Shown here one piece after another: positions 932 to 11,260 of a stretch of 13,374 nt of DNA. Both the position numbers and the translations under genes were made by a program. The DNA is from a bacterium. GTDB taxonomy: Bacteria; UBP15; UBA6099; DSWB01. The stretch spans positions 1-13,374 of the forward strand of contig JAGUYV010000213.1 in the NCBI GenBank assembly GCA_020061125.1, read 5' to 3'. The notes below the pieces were generated by a model. It worked only from the letters and a program-made list of their open reading frames with translations. It did not search any database and was not told where the DNA came from. Position 1 is the first letter of the stretch. Each line of letters opens with the position of its first letter.

Positions 932-1828
932 TCAGTTTTGCTGCTTGCCGTTGTTTTTTGGAGAAGGAAGCGGCAGCCCGCCCGGCGAATGCTGTTTCCA
1001 CTGAATCTGCGGCGCAGCGCCGGGATCGAACATCTCGTCCTCGGGCGGAGCGGCTTTGTCCACGATGTTGCTGAAAGTGCGTTTGCCGTCCACGGACAGT
1101 TCCGCGTCTATGTCCCCGTATCGGCGCTTGATTTGCAGGACCAGAGGTTCCGCCATGGGGTCCGAGTTCCCAAGCGTGACCTTGTTCATGGATTTCGCGT
1201 CAATGCCGGATACATAGTATTTCGTGCCCGGAACGAAATCACCCTTTTTCAGAATTTCGTTGTTGATGATCACGAAGTGCTCGCCGCTGTGGCTCGTGGA
1301 AATGGCGGAAAGCGTGAAAGAAGGCGGCTTGACGGCGATGGGTTGCGGGAATGTGAGCGGCATCTGGAATTCTTCGATGATGGGATTGAGATTGTCCTCG
1401 GGAATGACTTGAACGGTCTGCACCGGCTCCTCCTGCTCGTCCGGTTCTTGATCGAGAATGGGAGCGAAGGGATCGAGACGCCCCACCCGGCCGGAAAGCA
1501 AAGCGGTGTCGCCCGAAGCCGCGGCCACGGGCGTGGTGGCCATGGCGGTGGCGGACGGTGGAATGGATGACCGCGAAGAATCCTCTTGATGTTCCGGCGC
1601 GGGCGCCGCAGGCTTAAGCGCCTGTTCCGCCGCGGCCCGCTGTTTCTCAAGCTCGCCCTGGGCCTTTTCCAGGGTGAATCCGTCGGGCACGCGCACCGTG
1701 GGGGAGCCGCTTTGCGAGGGCAGCAAAAACCATACGCCGACGATGGACGCAATGAGCACGAATACGATCATCAGCCCGGAGGGCGTCATGCCCCACCGTT
1801 CGGCCAGATCCCTCACGGCTTCACTCAA
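932..1828 (-). CDS. PilP/GspC-like inner-membrane protein of a type IV pilus or type II secretion machine
   Basis: The protein has 298 residues with a single membrane segment near residues 18-36. Next come a charged, alanine- and proline-rich linker and the motif GRLDPFAP (117-124), which matches the R-D-P-F motif of PilP and GspC. A small beta domain (about 169-235) carries the pattern VIINNEILKKGD...G..Y.V..I....V.L of the GspC homology region/PilP domain. In known systems this part reaches from the inner-membrane PilN-PilO (GspL-GspM) complex to the secretin. A polar 60-residue tail follows the domain. The membrane anchor is GspC-like, since classical PilP is a lipoprotein, and no lipobox is seen here. 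The start given is a TTG that overlaps the pilO stop by 8 bases. A GTG four codons on (1816) is a good alternative, because AAAGGA directly abuts the TTG but lies 12 bases before the GTG. The position directly after pilO supports the call more than sequence similarity does. Confidence 0.75.
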   Translation of the reverse strand: MSEAVRDLAERWGMTPSGLMIVFVLIASIVGVWFLLPSQSGSPTVRVPDGFTLEKAQGELEKQRAAAEQALKPAAPAPEHQEDSSRSSIPPSATAMATTPVAAASGDTALLSGRVGRLDPFAPILDQEPDEQEEPVQTVQVIPEDNLNPIIEEFQMPLTFPQPIAVKPPSFTLSAISTSHSGEHFVIINNEILKKGDFVPGTKYYVSGIDAKSMNKVTLGNSDPMAEPLVLQIKRRYGDIDAELSVDGKRTFSNIVDKAAPPEDEMFDPGAAPQIQWKQHSPGGLPLPSPKNNGKQQN

Positions 1829-2429
1829 TCCTTTCTTCGTAATAACAAACCAGTTCCATGGCGATGCCGAGTCTGGTATCCAGCGGATCCAGAGAAGTCA
1901 GGCGCACGGACTGGACCTGAATCGCCTGGTTGCTCAACCATAACTGGGCGGAAAAATCGGAAAACGACTGGAACGATCCCGTGGCTTCGAATGTTACGGG
2001 GAGCCTGCGCACAGACACAGCGGCGCCGCCATCGAGAACCAGCCGCGCTTCCTCGGGCGGGTTTTCGTTAATGACAACATCCGTAAGGTCCATGCCCGCG
2101 GCCATGTCCGGCAGGCCCGCGGCCACGAAATCGCGAAGAGAATCCGCATTGAAGAGGGCGTTTCCGGTAAGGGACAAGGTATTCCGGTGCGATGGCGCCA
2201 CCATGGCCGCGCCCGCGGCCATGGCTTCCAGTTCCTTGATGCGCGCGGATTGGATGCTCACATTTTTTTGCAGGGATGCGCCGGTCGCGCGGGCCCGTTC
2301 AAGCTGCCGTTTCTGCGAACCGTAAACAAAGTGAAACAGCACCGCGGCGAACGCCAGGGCCAACACCGCCGCGGCCAGAACGCGCTGGCGCGGCGTGGTC
2401 GAAATAATAAAGGCCTTCAAATCGTTCAC
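1821..2429 (-). CDS. pilO: PilO-like type IV pilus inner-membrane protein
   Basis: The 202-residue bitopic protein has a short cytoplasmic N-terminus, one membrane helix at about residues 17-36, a probable coiled coil (about 38-72, rich in Q, R, E and A), and a C-terminal alpha/beta domain. That domain has the PilO-like pattern of a predicted beta strand (LPVTFEATGSFQSF), an alpha-helical F..QLW stretch and a closing strand (RLGIAMELVCYY). This size and layout match PilO/GspM, which pairs with PilN/GspL in the periplasm. The start is a GTG whose last two bases overlap the preceding TGA (GTGA, 4-base overlap), with GGAG about 9 bases upstream inside the previous gene, so translation is likely coupled. 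PilO sequences are weakly conserved, so the name rests on architecture and on the neighbours PilM-PilN and PilP-like. Confidence 0.78.
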   Translation of the reverse strand: MNDLKAFIISTTPRQRVLAAAVLALAFAAVLFHFVYGSQKRQLERARATGASLQKNVSIQSARIKELEAMAAGAAMVAPSHRNTLSLTGNALFNADSLRDFVAAGLPDMAAGMDLTDVVINENPPEEARLVLDGGAAVSVRRLPVTFEATGSFQSFSDFSAQLWLSNQAIQVQSVRLTSLDPLDTRLGIAMELVCYYEERIE

Positions 2430-3997
2430 TGCGAATTCTCCGTAGCGTTCCAGCGGGCTGTGACTGTGACCCGGTTCACGCCTATATCATTGATCTGCTG
2501 CGGCTCCACACTGCTGCGCCCCACATTTTTGAACCGGGTTCCCAGCATATCCGTGAAATCCTTGATGGATGCGGGATCCTGGGTAATGGCGTTGATTGTG
2601 ACGGCGAAATCCCGTTGTCCCTGCGAATCGTTTTTATCCTGGATGCGGGCGTCGAGATCCAGAAGCTGCATGGTTTTGGGCACGGATTCGGACAACTGCA
2701 TAGCCAGGGTGTTGACGGGCGCGGTGATTTTTTTGTCTCCGTTGACCGCCGGGATGCTCTTGAGGCGCTCTGCGCGCGGCTCAAGTTCGGCGATTTTCGA
2801 CTGATTCACATTATGCAGTTTCTGAATCTGGGCGTTGGTCTGTTGCTGCTTGACCACTTCACCCCTTGTCCGCGTAAACATAGCGCCCATGGCTGCGGCG
2901 ATGAGCAACACGACCAGACAGAACCACAATGCCAGTTTGCGCAACTGGGCCATTTCTGCGATTTCCGTGGGCAACAGATCCACGGAAAACGGCAGGCGGC
3001 CGATTTCCACGCCTCGCATGGCCAGACCCACGCTGGTGAGGAAATTCATGTCCACCTGTTCCATAAGTTCGGACGGGAATTCGTCCACATTCACCTTGAT
3101 GTCTGCGAAGGGCGTGTGCATTTCTATGGGAACATCGTCCACATGCTCGGTCAGCACATGGTAGAGATCCATGCCGCCTGCCGCGCCAAGGCTAAGAAGC
3201 ATCCTGTTGAGATGGCCGCCGCGGCTGTGCTCGGTCTGGTAAAAATGCATTGCCAGCATGACTTCGGACAGAATTTTGTCCAGAAATCCATTTTGCATCT
3301 GCATGGGATCCAGGGCCGGCATTTTCACGGTGCGCGAGTACCGTATGGTGTCGCCGCTGAACACATTCATGGAGATGCCCTGGTAATCATAGACCACGGA
3401 CATGAGGTCTTCCGTGGCCACGGGCGGCATGCCGTTGCGCAGCAGCCGCAGGATGGCGAATGAGCTCACATCCAGAGCCGCGCATTCCAGCCCCGCGTGC
3501 TCCAGCGTCTGATAATACGAATAGCACAGATCGCGCGCGGCGATGACGAGCATGATGGACACTCGGCGGCGGCCGTGTTCCTCGAATTCTTCGAGCGGGT
3601 GATAGTAAACGATTTTGTCTTCGCTTCCGAAAAGCACATAGCGGTCAATTTCGGATTCAATAAGGCGCTGGAGCCTGTCGTGGGGCATGGCGGGCAGGGT
3701 GATGAGACGGGACGCCACCTTGGACCCGCGCACCGCGGCCACCACGGTCCGGTGAGAAAACTTCCGCTTGTGAAAGAGTTCGCGAAGCGCGCGGCCCACG
3801 GTTTTGGAATCCGTAATCAGCCCGTCTTCCATGCACCCCTTGGGTGTTGGCGCTATGCCGAAATTGCGCAGAAAATACTCACGCCCCACACGCTCGATTT
3901 CCACCACGCGAATGGAGTCCGGCCCGATGTCCACGCCAATGACCGGCTCGAAGCTCTGTTGCAGCGATTCTTTTTTCAGATCCGCCAGACTGTCCAA
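2426..3997 (-). CDS. pilM: PilM-PilN fusion protein (GspL-like), type IV pilus/type II secretion platform
   Basis: The 523 residues combine two proteins that are usually separate. Residues 18-330 form an actin-like PilM domain: it opens with VIGVDIGPDSIRVVEI, the first nucleotide-binding strand-turn of the FtsA/PilM family, and later has LDVSSFAILR and the glycine-rich LSLGAAGGMD. The stretch FSVDLLPTEI (337-346) resembles the N-terminal INLLP motif by which free PilN binds PilM. A membrane helix (about 354-373), a Q/N-rich coiled coil (376-415) and a PilN-like ferredoxin-fold domain (about 425-515) follow. The fusion therefore has the order of GspL. It would sit in the inner membrane and link cytoplasmic assembly ATPases to the periplasmic PilO/PilP complex. 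The start is TTG: an in-frame TAG lies two codons upstream, GGAG (4008-4005) is 7 bases before it, and the next methionine is inside the PilM fold. It is the first gene of the operon, and its stop overlaps pilO. Confidence 0.85.
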   Translation of the reverse strand: MDSLADLKKESLQQSFEPVIGVDIGPDSIRVVEIERVGREYFLRNFGIAPTPKGCMEDGLITDSKTVGRALRELFHKRKFSHRTVVAAVRGSKVASRLITLPAMPHDRLQRLIESEIDRYVLFGSEDKIVYYHPLEEFEEHGRRRVSIMLVIAARDLCYSYYQTLEHAGLECAALDVSSFAILRLLRNGMPPVATEDLMSVVYDYQGISMNVFSGDTIRYSRTVKMPALDPMQMQNGFLDKILSEVMLAMHFYQTEHSRGGHLNRMLLSLGAAGGMDLYHVLTEHVDDVPIEMHTPFADIKVNVDEFPSELMEQVDMNFLTSVGLAMRGVEIGRLPFSVDLLPTEIAEMAQLRKLALWFCLVVLLIAAAMGAMFTRTRGEVVKQQQTNAQIQKLHNVNQSKIAELEPRAERLKSIPAVNGDKKITAPVNTLAMQLSESVPKTMQLLDLDARIQDKNDSQGQRDFAVTINAITQDPASIKDFTDMLGTRFKNVGRSSVEPQQINDIGVNRVTVTARWNATENSQ

Positions 3998-4279: not shown

Positions 4280-4359
4280 CCCGAAGACGGCTTGTGCTTT
4301 TGCCTGTGGCGGCGGCGCGTACGAGTGTATATAATGCGAATGTGCGGAGGTGTTCCAAA

Positions 4360-7300
4360 ATGAAAACCCGGATTGGGATTTACTTTATGCTGCTGTGGTG
4401 TTTCGCTCCTGTGGCTGTGTGCGAAGCGGCCGCGCTCGATGATTTCCAGAAGCAATTCCAGTCGCCCCCGGCAGAATACGGCGGCGCGCCGTTCTGGTCC
4501 TGGAACGAAACGCTGGAAAAACAAGAATTGCAGGTGCAGATAGACGAATTCGCGAAACAGGGCATGGGCGGCTTTTTCATGCATGCGCGCGAAGGGCTGA
4601 TCACCCCGTATATGGGGCCGGAATGGATGGAGGCCGTGCGCTTGAGCGTGGACCGCGCCTCGAAACTCGGCCTCAAGGCGTATCTATACGACGAGGACCG
4701 CTGGCCGTCCGGGTTTGCGAGCGGCAAAGTGCCGGCCATGAATGACGATTTCCGGCAGAAGGGCCTCGTGGTGGTCGAAGCGGGGGAACCGTTGACCGCA
4801 GAGCGGCTCCAGGAACTCGGCGCGCTCGTGGCCGTGTTCGAAGCCGAACTTGACGGGGTCATGGTCAAGTCATTCAGCAAGGCGACCATGACCGGGGGCG
4901 TCGCGGCCGCGCCCGCTCCGGGCCGGGAACTCCTGTACTTTTTCATGCAGACGGCTCAACTCAATGAGTGGTATAACGGCGAAACCTACATTGACACCCT
5001 GAACCCGGCGGCCGTTGACGCCTTTATATCCGTGACCCATGAGGAATACCGCAAGGCCGTGGGCCACGAGTTTGGCAAAACCGTGCCTGCCATCTTCACG
5101 GACGAGCCGGAATTTGTGTCCCGCCGCCATTTTTCTCACGAGGTCGCGCCGTGGACCCAGGCGCTGCCCGCGCAGTTCGAGAAGGAACACGGATACTCGA
5201 TTCTGGATAAATTGCCCCTGCTGTTTTACAATGGCGGCCCGGCCACGGACCCCGTGCGCCTGGACTTCTGGACCACGGCCACGGAGATGTTCCGCGACGC
5301 GTATTTCAAACGCATCTACGAGTGGTGCGAAAAGCACAACATCAAATTCACCGGGCATCTCATGCTCGAAGACACGCTCCCGGACCAGGTCTGGCGCGTG
5401 GGCGCCACTATGCCCCATTACGAGTACATGCAGATGCCGGGCATGGATCACCTGGGCCGCAACATTGACAACCTGCTCACCGCCAAACAGGTGAGCAGCG
5501 CCGCGCACCAGTTCTCGCGCCCGCTCATCCTCACGGAAACTTACGGTTGCAGCGGCTGGAACTTGAGCTTCGAGAACATGAAATGGATCGCCGACTGGCA
5601 CTACGCACTGGGCGTGAATTTCATGAACCAGCACCTGTCTTGGTACTCCATGAGAGGCACGCGCAAGCGCGACTATCCCGCCACGATTCTGTACCAGTCC
5701 CCGTGGTGGAAGGATCACAAAGTCATCGCGGATTACATCAAGCGCGCCACATACGCTACGGCCCAGGGCCGTTTCGTGGCCGAAACCCTGGTGCTGCACC
5801 CGGTGACCACGGCCTGGGCGCAGTTCTCGCCTCTGGAGAAATCACGCGTCACCGCTCTCAACCAACACTTCACGGATTTGCTGCATGCCTTGAGCGGACG
5901 GCAGGTGGACTACGATCTGGGCGATGAAATCGTAATAGCCCGCCACGGTTCGGTGAAAGACGGGAAGTTTATTGTGGGAGACATGACATATGACAATGTG
6001 ATCATTCCCGATGCGCGCGTGCTGCGCGGTTCCACTGTGAAACGGCTCAAGGAATTTCTTGACCAGGGCGGCACGGTGATATCCCTCGGCTCCATGGCAT
6101 ACCTGGCTGACGCGGAAGAGCCGGTTACACTGGACAAAGCCGTAGTTTCGGCGGACATACCCGCAGCGCTGGACGCGCTCATCCCGCGCCTCAAAAGCCA
6201 CGCCGCCATGACATTCACCTGTGCCAGCCCCCCATGCGCACAGGGCGACAAGGTTTACCTTCACCAGCGCGAGGTCCAAGGTTCCTCGTTCTTCATGTTC
6301 GTGAACACGGACCAGGAAAATCCCGTGAACGCGCAAGTCGTACTGCCCCTGTCCGGCAGGGTGCGCGTCTGGGATCTGTTCAGCGGCACGGCGCTGGATT
6401 ATCCGAATGCCAGCCGGGACGGGCATGCCGTTGTGCCGGTGAACCTCGGCCAGGCCGGTTCGCTGCTCATCTCCGTGTCCCCGGACGAACCTCAAACACC
6501 TGTGACGGCCCACCCCAAAAAAACCGTGCGCGCTGTGGTTCTGCCGGACGCCTGGACTATCGCGGGCCGTGGACCCAACGCGCTCACAATTGACACTGTC
6601 AGTTACAAGCGCAAGGGAGACACCGCGTGGATCCCCAATGTGTCCACGCATACGGCGCAGGATTCCATGGAATCTCTGGGCACGGATTTCGAATTCTCGG
6701 TGCAGTACAAATTCGGCCTGGGTGCGGAACCCGCCTCGCTCGGTCCGCTTTTTCTGGTGCTCGAACAGCCCGAAGGCAAACAGATTATTCTGAACGGAAA
6801 ACCATTGAAATACGACCCGGAACAGGGATGGTGGATTGACAAATCGTTCCGGAAAATTGACATTTCGAGCGCCGTGGCCAAAGGGAAAAATGTTCTTGAA
6901 GTCAGGGGCGTGTTCCACCGGCCCAAGAAGCCCGGTACGCGCATCTACCTGCCCGGAGGCACGGAAATCGAAAGCGCGTATGTGATTGGCGATTTTTCCG
7001 TGGCGCAAACAAAAAGCGGCCAGTTCCTGATTGTGCCGCCCAACAATACCCTGTTCTATGGGGACATGGCGGAAAAAGGCTATCCGTTCTATTCCGGAAC
7101 CCTGGCCGTGGAGCAAACGGCGGACATTGAGAAGCCCGTGCCCGGAGAGCGCGTGTTTCTGGAAATACGCGGCCTCGAAGCCATTACCGCGCGCGTATTC
7201 GTGAACAGCGCGGACGCCGGGCTTGTGGCCTTTCACCCGCATGAGCTGGACATCACGGATTTCGTCAAACCGGGTAAAAACGCCATTCGCATAGAGATTA

Positions 7301-7458
7301 CGAACAGCAACAGAAATCTGCTCGGGCCACATCACGCCGTTGAGCGGGAGCCGCTGAATGTTGGCCCCGGCACTTTCGAGGGCAGCATTCTGTTGAACAA
7401 CTACTATTTCATTCCGTTCGGCATAAGCGAAGGCGTAAGCCTGTCCTACAGGCATTGA
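4360..7458 (+). CDS. secreted GH106-like glycoside hydrolase (probable alpha-L-rhamnosidase)
   Basis: The 1032-residue protein begins with a signal peptide (MKTRIGIYFML... ending near CEAAA, about 25 residues). The ATG at 4360 is chosen because GGAGG (4346-4350) lies 9 bases upstream and the signal peptide follows at once; a longer upstream reading is not supported. The N-terminal catalytic region has motifs of the GH106/alpha-L-rhamnosidase type: PFWSWNE (44-50), GMGGFFMHAREG (68-79), YDEDRWPSG (110-118), IFTDEPEF (245-252), GHLMLEDTL (332-340) and LTETYGCSGW (391-400). E249/E251 and E393 are candidate catalytic acids. A region around 500-600 (VIIPDARVL, GGTVISLGS) looks like a glutamine-amidotransferase-like domain. 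The last 400 residues are beta-sandwich, including GH2-like carbohydrate-binding jelly rolls (LDITDFVKPGKNAIRIEI near the end). It should act in the periplasm or outside the cell on rhamnose-containing glycans. It stands alone, with no transporter or other glycosidase beside it, so the substrate is inferred from family only. Confidence 0.85.
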   Translation: MKTRIGIYFMLLWCFAPVAVCEAAALDDFQKQFQSPPAEYGGAPFWSWNETLEKQELQVQIDEFAKQGMGGFFMHAREGLITPYMGPEWMEAVRLSVDRASKLGLKAYLYDEDRWPSGFASGKVPAMNDDFRQKGLVVVEAGEPLTAERLQELGALVAVFEAELDGVMVKSFSKATMTGGVAAAPAPGRELLYFFMQTAQLNEWYNGETYIDTLNPAAVDAFISVTHEEYRKAVGHEFGKTVPAIFTDEPEFVSRRHFSHEVAPWTQALPAQFEKEHGYSILDKLPLLFYNGGPATDPVRLDFWTTATEMFRDAYFKRIYEWCEKHNIKFTGHLMLEDTLPDQVWRVGATMPHYEYMQMPGMDHLGRNIDNLLTAKQVSSAAHQFSRPLILTETYGCSGWNLSFENMKWIADWHYALGVNFMNQHLSWYSMRGTRKRDYPATILYQSPWWKDHKVIADYIKRATYATAQGRFVAETLVLHPVTTAWAQFSPLEKSRVTALNQHFTDLLHALSGRQVDYDLGDEIVIARHGSVKDGKFIVGDMTYDNVIIPDARVLRGSTVKRLKEFLDQGGTVISLGSMAYLADAEEPVTLDKAVVSADIPAALDALIPRLKSHAAMTFTCASPPCAQGDKVYLHQREVQGSSFFMFVNTDQENPVNAQVVLPLSGRVRVWDLFSGTALDYPNASRDGHAVVPVNLGQAGSLLISVSPDEPQTPVTAHPKKTVRAVVLPDAWTIAGRGPNALTIDTVSYKRKGDTAWIPNVSTHTAQDSMESLGTDFEFSVQYKFGLGAEPASLGPLFLVLEQPEGKQIILNGKPLKYDPEQGWWIDKSFRKIDISSAVAKGKNVLEVRGVFHRPKKPGTRIYLPGGTEIESAYVIGDFSVAQTKSGQFLIVPPNNTLFYGDMAEKGYPFYSGTLAVEQTADIEKPVPGERVFLEIRGLEAITARVFVNSADAGLVAFHPHELDITDFVKPGKNAIRIEITNSNRNLLGPHHAVEREPLNVGPGTFEGSILLNNYYFIPFGISEGVSLSYRH

Positions 7459-7733: not shown

Positions 7734-7796
7734 TTGTTATCATCTTGTCCCGTGCGGGTTAAAGCGGGAAATCTTGAGACACGACGCGGAGGCGCC

Positions 7797-8714
7797 ATGT
7801 TTGCAAGGGACATCAAAATCTCCTGGGGCCATTACGAACAAATCAACATCAGCGACATTCACAACGATGTAAGCCGGGTGTTCATCAGGGAACTGACCAA
7901 TAGGCCCAGACACTTTATTATTGATGTGTACCTTTGCAGCGACGCCAGAAACCATTTCATCAGACAAATCCTTTCGCACATTCCTTATGTAAATGTTCTG
8001 AATTCCGCCGGAAATGTGGTATACAACCCTCACCACCGGCCCTCGGTGATTATCGCTCACGGAGATTCGGCTTACACCGGGTGCGGAGCCATTGATTATG
8101 CCAAAGCGCATTCCAGGGACGACCTCCACGGATATCCGGCCATAGCCTCTCTGGAGCCTGACCCCCTCCAGAACGCCCACGCGCAGCTTGCAAAAATATA
8201 CCCGGAATGGCGCGCGGGCATCATTTACTTCGATCATGAAAAGGGCGTCGTATCCATGATTGAAGGGAATCACGACAACCGCGGCATCGGGCTTGCCCTG
8301 TATTCGGAGCTGCGCAAGAGCCTCAAACATGGCTTTGCCGAAAGCGAACTCAAGCACATGGCCACGGGCCAGAACCCCGACATCATTTTCCTCAACAATA
8401 TTTTCACGGACATGACCGCGTTCAACGCATTCACCATCAACCTGCAGCGCGACTCGTTCGACGGCATCGTTTACGATTCCCTGAAGTACGCCATGGATCA
8501 CGCCTTGAGGGGTGAGGGCAGTTTCAAGGACACGCGGGTTGTGGTGTTGGCCTTCCGCCGGGACGAGCCAATCCCCGACGAATTGCATTCTCTGCTGAAC
8601 AGGGAAGTATTTGTCCGGGAATATCTGAACCGCGGCGGAAAAATTTATGTAGTTACGGTCGGCGATCTTCCCAGCATGAAAACCGTGTATCGCGTAACCA
8701 ACCACCTGGATTGA
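7797..8714 (+). CDS. divergent beta-carbonic-anhydrase-like protein with C-terminal extension
   Basis: The 305-residue protein is probably cytoplasmic, as no signal peptide is seen. Its first about 155 residues follow the beta-carbonic anhydrase pattern. CSDAR (47-51) matches the zinc-binding and catalytic CxDxR. NSAGN (69-73) matches the RNAGN motif. VIIAHGDSAYTGCGA (84-98) matches the GHxxCGG strand and second zinc site. GIIYFDHEKGVV (141-152) matches the closing strand of the fold. The oddity is the second zinc site: three residues before C96, where histidine is expected, there is Y93, and the nearest histidine is H88, eight before. Residues 160-305 form an extension I do not recognise, ending in a VVVLAFRR / KIYVVTVGD alpha/beta-like pattern. 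The ATG at 7797 follows GGAGG (7788-7792) at a short 4-base spacing; an upstream TTG in the same frame has no support. The canonical enzyme is the next gene. It may bind zinc differently, may have lost activity, or may act on another small molecule. Confidence 0.7.
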   Translation: MFARDIKISWGHYEQINISDIHNDVSRVFIRELTNRPRHFIIDVYLCSDARNHFIRQILSHIPYVNVLNSAGNVVYNPHHRPSVIIAHGDSAYTGCGAIDYAKAHSRDDLHGYPAIASLEPDPLQNAHAQLAKIYPEWRAGIIYFDHEKGVVSMIEGNHDNRGIGLALYSELRKSLKHGFAESELKHMATGQNPDIIFLNNIFTDMTAFNAFTINLQRDSFDGIVYDSLKYAMDHALRGEGSFKDTRVVVLAFRRDEPIPDELHSLLNREVFVREYLNRGGKIYVVTVGDLPSMKTVYRVTNHLD

Positions 8715-8769
8715 CACGCGGCGCAGAAGACGAAGCATCGATTTTTTCCATGTGTTCATTCTATTGTCA

Positions 8770-8778
8770 TGATATACT
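8770..8778 (+). promoter_or_regulatory. possible extended -10 promoter of the carbonic anhydrase gene
   Basis: TGATATACT is an extended -10 element (TGn followed by TATACT at 8773-8778). No good -35 box is found 16-18 bases upstream, as expected for extended -10 promoters. It would give a leader of about 85 bases before the carbonic anhydrase start. Confidence 0.4.
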
Positions 8779-8870
8779 TGATTCGTATCACCTAATGAAC
8801 CTGGCCCTCGCCAAGCGCACAGCGCACCGGTTCGCGGGACTTCACAAATGCTTCCAGGAGAGATTCCGGA

Positions 8871-9455
8871 ATGATTAGCAAATTGTTGAAAGGCAACAAG
8901 GAGTTTGTGCGGGACATATTCAATGTGGAGCATTTGGAGCGCTTCGCCAAAGGGCAGCATCCGCACACATGCTGGATCGGATGTTCGGATTCGCGGGTGC
9001 CGGAAAATCTGATCACGGGAACCGGCGATGGAGAGTTGTTCGTTCACCGCAACATCGCGAACATCATTCCCGCGCACCAGACCGAGGAAGGCGCGGTTCT
9101 GGAATACGCCGTGGAAGTGCTGCATGTGAAGCAAATCGTGCTATGCGGGCATTACGGATGCGGAGGTCTCACCGAACTGCTGCACGGCGTGGACCATCGC
9201 ACTCACATCGGACACTGGTTGAGACACGGCGAGGAAGCTCTGCACCGGTTGCAGAAGCGGCCCGGATTCCATGATTTGCCCCGCGATGAAGCCCTCAATC
9301 TGCTCGTCGAGGAAAACCTGCACCTTCAGCGTTCCAACGCCTTGTCCTATCCCTTCGTTAGGCAGGCAGTGAAAAATCATGATTTGCAGATTCACCTGCT
9401 GATATACGATCTCCAAACCGGACGGCTGCACAAACTCGAGGAACGCGCTCATTAA
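8871..9455 (+). CDS. beta-carbonic anhydrase
   Basis: The 194-residue cytoplasmic enzyme reversibly hydrates CO2 to bicarbonate, using one zinc per subunit. The zinc ligands are C38, H94 and C97, and the catalytic dyad is D40-R42 in CSDSR (38-42). Other family motifs are GDGELFVHRNIAN (52-64), EEGAVLEYAV (72-81) and CGHYGCGG (92-99). The C-terminal IYDLQTGRLHKLE is the usual closing strand. The length is normal for the bacterial class. The ATG follows AGGAGA (8856-8861) at 9 bases. A 27-codon reading frame beginning at 8795 overlaps this start by 8 bases. The neighbours are a divergent relative upstream and a ferredoxin downstream. Likely roles are bicarbonate supply for carboxylases or pH balance. 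Confidence 0.96.
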   Translation: MISKLLKGNKEFVRDIFNVEHLERFAKGQHPHTCWIGCSDSRVPENLITGTGDGELFVHRNIANIIPAHQTEEGAVLEYAVEVLHVKQIVLCGHYGCGGLTELLHGVDHRTHIGHWLRHGEEALHRLQKRPGFHDLPRDEALNLLVEENLHLQRSNALSYPFVRQAVKNHDLQIHLLIYDLQTGRLHKLEERAH

Positions 9456-9518: not shown

Positions 9519-9695
9519 ATGCCCCGATTCATCACCGACGACTGCGTGGCCTGCGGCGCGTGCGAAGCCGCATGCCCCGAAGAAGCCATCCATGAGGGAG
9601 ATCCCAAATACATCATTGACCCCGAGGCGTGCGTGGACTGCGGAGAATGCGAAGAGGTCTGTCCCAACGATGCAATTATTCAAAAACAGGCATAA
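9519..9695 (+). CDS. 2[4Fe-4S] ferredoxin (clostridial type)
   Basis: The 58-residue electron carrier has two complete cluster motifs, CVACGACEAACP (C9, C12, C15, C19) and CVDCGECEEVCP (C38, C41, C44, C48). The spacing C-x2-C-x2-C-x3-C-P is that of low-potential bacterial ferredoxins, and the acidic residues between and around the motifs (EE, DP, EE) are typical. The ATG follows GGAGG (9503-9507) at 11 bases. It lies 63 bases after the carbonic anhydrase, with its own TATAAT box. Partner enzymes are not visible; pyruvate:ferredoxin oxidoreductase or a hydrogenase elsewhere would be usual. Its presence hints at anaerobic or facultative metabolism, but this is weak evidence. Confidence 0.95.
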   Translation: MPRFITDDCVACGACEAACPEEAIHEGDPKYIIDPEACVDCGECEEVCPNDAIIQKQA

Positions 9696-9755: not shown

Positions 9756-9862
9756 TATGTTTGAAATCTCTGGGTTTGGTGAATGATTACTGTAACAGAC
9801 GACCAAACGATTGTTTTCAAGCCAAGCCCAGGGATATCAACATAGAAGCGGAGAGAGAAGCC

Positions 9863-11260
9863 ATGAAGATCATGCGGCAATGGATCATGCTTGCGGCGGT
9901 TCTTGCGGCGGGGGGCATGCTGATCAGTTCCTGCGGCGGGGGCGGAGTCTCCGTAACGGGCGGGCAGTCCGCACAGGTTCAGACTCCCGAACAGGAATAT
10001 CCGCAGCTTGTGGACGCTCCGGAAGCCATGGACGCGATTGCGGCCGCGGCGCGCGGCGAGTTCCCTTTTGATGATGAAATCCTCGACGACGCACAGGAAC
10101 CCATGGCGCAATCCATGCGTAAGATGCAGCAGATCCCTCCCGCGGGCGCTTCCGGCGGCCCGGACATGAATTCTTACTACATTCCCTCAAAAGCCTTCGA
10201 CGGAGATTACAGGTCCTGGTGGGCCGGCAAAACTGGCGCCAAGAAATGGGATTTGTATTACGCTTTTCAGCAGTCTCACCATCTTGACTTCATCAACATC
10301 AACTTTTACGGTCCGGATTACATTCCCGATAAACTGGATGTTTATGTGAGCGCAGACGGGTTGCAGTGGGACCGCGTGGCGCACCTCATCAATCACAAAA
10401 AGCAGCCTTTGAACCCGTTCGTGGCCATCGGCCGGGAGGTGCGCTACATCTGGATTGATATGCAGGGCAACCCAAAAATCGGCTTCCCGCTGGTGCGCGA
10501 CATCGAGTGGCAGCCCATTGCCGAGCGCGTGGGCGCTTACGCCATTCCGGGACAGAACGACAATTGGTATTTTGCGTCAAACGCATTTGATGCGGATCCC
10601 GAAACCCTGTGGGCAGGCAAACAGGGCGCGGGCGAATGGACCATGTTTTACGGATTTCCCCAGGCCCGGTTCATCGGCGTTGTGGCCGTGGACATTTTCA
10701 GTGTGAACCACCGGCCCGCGGATATGGAGCTGTTCACCAGCAACGACGGCAAGGAGTGGACAAGCCTCGGTTCTTTCGGCAGCGTGTGGCCGCCCAGGAA
10801 GTTTGCGGGCGAGGTGTGCAAGTATTTCAAGATCGTCATGACCGGCAACCCTCCCAGCGGATTCCCCATAATCAGAACCATCACATACAACCTGCCAGCG
10901 GGCGCGTATGCAAAACCCAACGAAAATTCTTACTATGTCGCCGCCAACGCCTTCGACGGCGTACCCAACACATGGTGGGTGGGACAGAGAATGGCCGGAG
11001 CTTGGGACCTGTACTACGGCTTCGAAAGTCCCAGGGCCGTGGGGACCGTGAGAGTGAATTACTACAGCGTGAACCACATGCCCGCGACCACCGAGCTGTT
11101 CACCAGCACCGACGGCGTCACATGGACCTCTGCGGGCATGATGCCAACCGGCGCATCCCCGTCCCTGGCTGTGAACGCTTCGGTGAAGTATCTCCGGTTC
11201 TCAATGAAGGGCAATCCGTATGTGGGATATCCGCTCGTCAAGGATATCGCAATACAATAA
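9863..11260 (+). CDS. lipoprotein with three tandem discoidin-like (F5/8 type C-like) repeats
   Basis: The 465-residue protein starts with a lipoprotein signal: a hydrophobic stretch, then ISSC with C24 as the lipidated cysteine, then a GGGG linker. A low-complexity acidic and alanine-rich region (about 30-100) leads to three homologous units at about 102-218, 233-345 and 354-465. Each contains SYY/NWYF..(S/A)NAFD, a W(A/V)G motif, an aromatic YY/FYGF strand, a DVYVSADG / LFTSNDG / LFTSTDG..W strand and a closing MxGNPxxGFPL/YPLV. This resembles jelly-roll discoidin or F5/8 type C carbohydrate-binding domains. There is no catalytic domain. It probably sits on the outer membrane or cell surface and binds glycans or other surfaces. 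The ATG follows GGAG (9850-9853) at 9 bases; an upstream in-frame start lacks the signal arrangement. Family placement rests on pattern, not on an alignment. Confidence 0.82.
   Translation: MKIMRQWIMLAAVLAAGGMLISSCGGGGVSVTGGQSAQVQTPEQEYPQLVDAPEAMDAIAAAARGEFPFDDEILDDAQEPMAQSMRKMQQIPPAGASGGPDMNSYYIPSKAFDGDYRSWWAGKTGAKKWDLYYAFQQSHHLDFININFYGPDYIPDKLDVYVSADGLQWDRVAHLINHKKQPLNPFVAIGREVRYIWIDMQGNPKIGFPLVRDIEWQPIAERVGAYAIPGQNDNWYFASNAFDADPETLWAGKQGAGEWTMFYGFPQARFIGVVAVDIFSVNHRPADMELFTSNDGKEWTSLGSFGSVWPPRKFAGEVCKYFKIVMTGNPPSGFPIIRTITYNLPAGAYAKPNENSYYVAANAFDGVPNTWWVGQRMAGAWDLYYGFESPRAVGTVRVNYYSVNHMPATTELFTSTDGVTWTSAGMMPTGASPSLAVNASVKYLRFSMKGNPYVGYPLVKDIAIQ

Follow-up and report, generated by a model that had tools for sequence, protein, structure and literature searches.

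Beta-carbonic anhydrases (beta-CAs) built as pseudo-dimers with a single active site are already known, namely CsoSCA, CsoSCA2 and DabA. CsoSCA, with Cys173, His242 and Cys253, has a defunct C-terminal domain (PMC12646314; PMC11086599), and CsoSCA2 is a widespread compact relative of it (PMC9164163). In beta-CAs a conserved glutamine or histidine stabilises the transition state, as exemplified by Gln33 of P. aeruginosa CA and Gln151 of pea CA, and in DabA2 the equivalent residue, Leu658, is located in the second domain, with the zinc site in the first (PMC13144422). Here, a gene designated P0001, located on a contig from an uncultured bacterium (JAGUYV010000213.1, analysed over its full 13,374 nucleotides and referred to as the window), was compared with these systems. 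Its product belongs to no Pfam family and, judged from sequence, is probably one chain in which two fused beta-CA domains form a pseudo-dimer with a single active site, at which CO2 would be hydrated.

The P0001 gene (7797..8714, + strand) encodes a two-domain beta-CA-like protein of 305 amino acids, translated from an ATG downstream of GGAGG, and is 58% identical from start to start with its homologue. The CSDAR, SAGN and GCGA landmarks reported in the first-pass annotation are present, as is the ordinary beta-CA gene described next to it, P0002 (8871..9455, + strand; Pro_CA, PF00484, E=4.8e-46), which is co-directional with P0001 across a gap of 156 bp and is followed by a gene for a two-cluster 4Fe-4S ferredoxin (9519-9695). 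Searches of P0001 against Pfam returned nothing up to E=10, including PF00484, PF08936 (CsoSCA) and PF10070 (DabA), and those against NCBIfam gave no meaningful match. Terminator and promoter scans around the locus gave results close to chance level. A 464-codon antisense ORF (7740-9134, - strand) covers both CA genes, and one of 377 codons lies opposite the homologue of P0001; these are probably a by-product of codon usage. Elsewhere in the window, a 1054-amino-acid protein resembling GH106-type alpha-L-rhamnosidases, with a galactose-binding-like region towards its C-terminus, is encoded at 4294-7458 (+ strand), and a likely lipoprotein carrying three discoidin (F5/8 type C) domains at 9761-11260 (+ strand). 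In the region 932-3997 (- strand), two small ORFs, of which one is weakly similar to T2SS protein M, follow a PilM-type pilus assembly gene; together they make up a type IV pilus or secretion cluster.

The N-terminal repeat of P0001 (residues 1-158; 7797..8270, + strand) matched a beta-CA alignment in hhalign with E=7.1e-4 and has a complete predicted zinc site. In alignment A2, composed of 28 rows (P0001, its homologue and core pieces of 26 ordinary beta-CAs), the sole positions invariant in 28/28 rows are C47, D49, R51, H88 and C96. The CSDAR motif (7935..7949, + strand) supplies the predicted zinc ligand C47 and the D49-R51 dyad, while H88 (8058..8060, + strand) and C96 (8082..8084, + strand) are the remaining predicted ligands, so that the Cys-His-Cys ligands and the Asp-Arg dyad are arranged as CxDxR...H...C, as in the beta-CA class. 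The spacing of the second motif departs from GHxxCG, being H-X7-C in place of H-X2-C. Since the P0001 strand PSVIIAH aligns with IVVxGH, H88 corresponds to the usual zinc histidine of GHxxCG, and the altered spacing reflects a five-residue insertion between it and xxCG, GDSAY (8061..8075, + strand), which stands ahead of TG-CGA and is a gap in 26/26 ordinary beta-CAs. Y93, which had been proposed to replace the zinc histidine, falls inside this insertion and is phenylalanine in the homologue, on which ground it was rejected as a metal ligand; on this alignment the motif had seemed abnormal through a misreading of its register. The related suggestion of a catalytically altered protein likewise lacks good support, since P0001 retains the full set of five metal and dyad residues. 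The N-terminal half does lack the helix normally found between AGN and the following strand, and this, together with the H-X7-C spacing, could spoil the site.

The C-terminal half (residues 159-305; 8271..8711, + strand) includes a 145-residue tail that the first-pass annotation had noted as an extension of unknown nature; hhalign, MAFFT and a model match identify it as a degenerate beta-CA repeat, most likely a dead second beta-CA domain. Against a 28-sequence beta-CA alignment, residues 159-305 and 1-158 gave hhalign E-values of 6.5e-4 and 7.1e-4, respectively, each with a score of 27.6; these E-values are modest, and two sequences, P0001 and its homologue, underlie them. None of 200 column shuffles per half reached the hhalign score (shuffle maximum 21.9), and none of 186 ORF decoys reached 27.6, the best scoring 24.4. 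When P0001 was used as a single sequence the scores dropped to 24.2 and 23.4, near that of the best decoy, and the two-sequence alignment therefore matters to the profile match. HMMER with the CA alignment gave a weak result, and no direct match was found between the two halves of P0001. Left free, MAFFT placed arm-plus-core pieces of CAs onto the C-terminal half, pairing the beta-CA N-terminal arm and GQxP with ALYSELRKSLKHGFAESELKHMATGQNPDIIFL, the helix following AGN with GIVYDSLKYAMDHAL, and the strand preceding GH with TRVVVLAF. By this placement N201 (8397..8399, + strand) stands at the position of the first cysteine ligand and F253-R254-R255-D256 (8553..8564, + strand) at that of H-x-x-C, such that the ligand positions are occupied by N201, F253 and D256 and all zinc ligands are lost.

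Structural modelling lends some further weight to the second-domain reading. When CA rows were offered to both halves, MAFFT piled all of them on one half or spread them, and the rows were therefore supplied for the N-terminal half only. The resulting AlphaFold model has a mean pLDDT of 52.6, which is low confidence, although in the C-terminal half residues 221-290 reach block means of 61-83; the CA rows over the N-terminal half may have primed it. VIA-align matched residues 193-305 of the model to beta-CA entries over approximately 103 residues with Z of about 6-7.5, where chance is possible at Z<8, and among the matches was 8thm (residues 458-576), the C-terminal part of a CsoSCA. Foldseek with the same model returned nothing below E 0.001. 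The likeness of the modelled C-terminal half to beta-CAs thus supports, but does not decide, the second-domain reading, since Z-scores of this size may arise by chance and Foldseek gave no E-value below 0.001. An initial model, constructed from the two sequences without CA rows, was uninformative (pLDDT 39), with one beta-CA entry matched at Z 3.4. Searches of PDB sequences with P0001 or alignment A1 yielded chance matches only, which were discarded, and CA matches to the A2 profile, among them 3ten, 3vqj and both domains of 1ddz, arise by construction.

A single homologue of P0001 was found (L003:578-1489), with 58% identity over 302 residues, in the metagenome-assembled genome Dive96_bin1.91 (G001), the Dive96 sample having been taken at a vent on the Southwest Indian Ridge (PMC9769843). 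No homologue was present in five further genomes from this order, and no further relatives were found in plasmids, phages, viral contigs, GTDB contigs or 386 whole genomes; matches at E 0.001-0.03 in these searches were rejected as short unrelated fragments. P0001 and its homologue differ at codon positions 1, 2 and 3 by 0.30, 0.21 and 0.59, respectively, indicating that selection acts on P0001 as a protein. These observations, together with the absence of any Pfam or NCBIfam match, bear out the earlier suggestion of an undescribed subfamily: P0001 most likely represents an unnamed lineage, separate from CsoSCA, that is known from two uncultured bacteria only. In G001, which is 95% complete, no Pro_CA gene was detected, and the homologue, situated close to the end of a contig, has no CA neighbour, the next ORF being unrelated. 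Conserved pairing with a normal CA, for which the first-pass annotation had proposed a homologue search, was rejected on these grounds, the pairing being absent from the sole homologue's genome and hence seen in this window only (n=2; homologue near contig end).

The same genome as P0001 also encodes an 871-amino-acid protein (L040:4174-6789; G000:C2:7173-9788) that has a signal-like segment at its N-terminus and combines a beta-CA domain (Pro_CA E=6.4e-38) with a methyl-accepting chemotaxis signalling domain (E=1.7e-44). No beta-CA/chemotaxis-domain fusion turned up in a literature search, and the protein is a candidate CO2/bicarbonate chemoreceptor.

The distribution of the catalytic glutamine suggests how the two halves of P0001 might cooperate. 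We equate the conserved glutamine of beta-CAs with that of the GQxP motif, which precedes the first cysteine by nine residues, with numbering equivalence presumed via Cys42 and Cys160. A glutamine is present at this position in 21/26 ordinary CAs of the panel. In P0001 it occurs only in the dead half, as Q192 of GQNP (8370..8372, + strand), again nine residues ahead of the first-cysteine position, the corresponding residue of the live half being R38; the live half lacks it in both homologues. A one-site pseudo-dimer would be expected to leave such an asymmetry, as the dead half would lend its glutamine and the live half would need none. In the N-terminal half, zinc would be bound by C47, H88 and C96, water would be held by the D49-R51 dyad, and the site would hydrate CO2. 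The C-terminal half, having lost its three ligands, would take the place that the partner subunit has in an ordinary beta-CA dimer, closing the active-site cleft and lending Q192 across domains, with P0002 presumably an independent gene. It is possible, if doubtful, that a one-site, two-domain beta-CA originated independently in this small uncultured lineage, with the dead half kept for its glutamine; a changed substrate, or control through the dead half, is also possible. RuBP acts on the cyanobacterial CsoSCA, which serves as the model for such control.

An alternative that retains the one-site pseudo-dimer fold is that P0001 has a different small molecule as its substrate, for example COS or CS2, its pocket having been reshaped by the GDSAY insertion and the loss of the helix. 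The segment from AGN to C96, in which P0001 departs from beta-CAs, lines the beta-CA active site, and CS2 and COS hydrolases have the same fold (3ten, 3vqj); however, the residue set for CO2 hydration is complete, glutamine included, and the neighbouring genes hold no pointer to sulphur chemistry, making a different substrate rather unlikely. It is unlikely, too, that P0001 is a divergent CsoSCA2, i.e. a non-carboxysomal CsoSCA, as opposed to a separate lineage. Both have the same architecture, a widened His-Cys spacing and, following CxDxR, a comparable helix and IP-[FY] segment (PMC9164163), and the modelled C-terminal half matches the CsoSCA C-terminal domain. Against this, the Pfam CsoSCA model gave no match up to E 10, and hhalign scores against 28 cyanobacterial CsoSCA sequences were at shuffle level.

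The first-pass annotation also raised the possibility that P0001 regulates the product of the second gene or acts as its partner, and the two genes are adjacent and co-directional, 156 bp apart. That P0001 is a catalytically dead regulatory or partner subunit of the neighbouring CA is very unlikely, given that the five metal and dyad residues are all kept and that neither a Pro_CA gene nor a CA neighbour was detected in G001, the only other genome with a P0001 protein. The lack of a detected Pro_CA gene in G001 to supply the activity counts in favour of an active P0001, which is, on present sequence comparisons, more likely a CA than a regulator of its neighbour. That P0001 is no relative of beta-CAs at all, its landmarks being a chance resemblance in another fold, would accord with the absent Pfam match, the modest E-values and the low-confidence model, but is highly improbable in view of the five catalytic residues in order, with AGN and GQxP, and the shuffle and decoy controls.

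Read as a one-site pseudo-dimer, P0001 can be set against the known systems. Ordinary beta-CA dimers (PF00484, e.g. P0002) have the same CxDxR, AGN, His, CG and GQxP landmarks, but carry a site in each subunit, H-X2-C spacing and no fused second domain. Tandem beta-CAs (Porphyridium 1ddz; L039:2490-3899) also have two fused beta-CA domains per chain; the zinc motif, however, is present in both domains of L039, and both domains of 1ddz match the profile, whereas in P0001 only one domain keeps the zinc motif. The natural tandem ORF of L039 lies directly behind a third, single-domain CA gene (L039:1769-3899; G031:C257). DabA2 (DAB2 complex, PF10070) resembles P0001 in its non-H-X2-C spacing and in the location of the glutamine-equivalent residue in the second domain (PMC13144422), but is much larger, is membrane-coupled and has leucine for glutamine, whereas P0001 keeps glutamine and has no PF10070 match. 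P0001 shares the plan of CsoSCA and CsoSCA2, with a predicted active domain preceding a defunct one that has lost the zinc ligands. It resembles CsoSCA in combining both domains in one chain, in its type I dyad and in its widened His-Cys spacing (His242/Cys253 in H. neapolitanus; PMC12646314), and differs in having H-X7-C instead of H-X10-C, in its 305-amino-acid length without the 144-residue N-terminal domain of CsoSCA, and in lacking profile similarity to the 28 cyanobacterial CsoSCA sequences. It is built like CsoSCA2, a comparison that draws on the description of CsoSCA2 and on cyanobacterial CsoSCA sequences. No BMC or RuBisCO large-chain genes were found in the seven genomes of the order, and no PF08936 in 290 relatives. 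Current family models miss P0001, and carbonic anhydrases in uncultured lineages may be under-counted as a result. Because its catalytic glutamine is retained only in the dead half, P0001 offers a clean test of that half's purpose, and it would add a compact, carboxysome-independent one-site pseudo-dimer to CsoSCA, CsoSCA2 and DabA2, whose selective advantage is ill understood.
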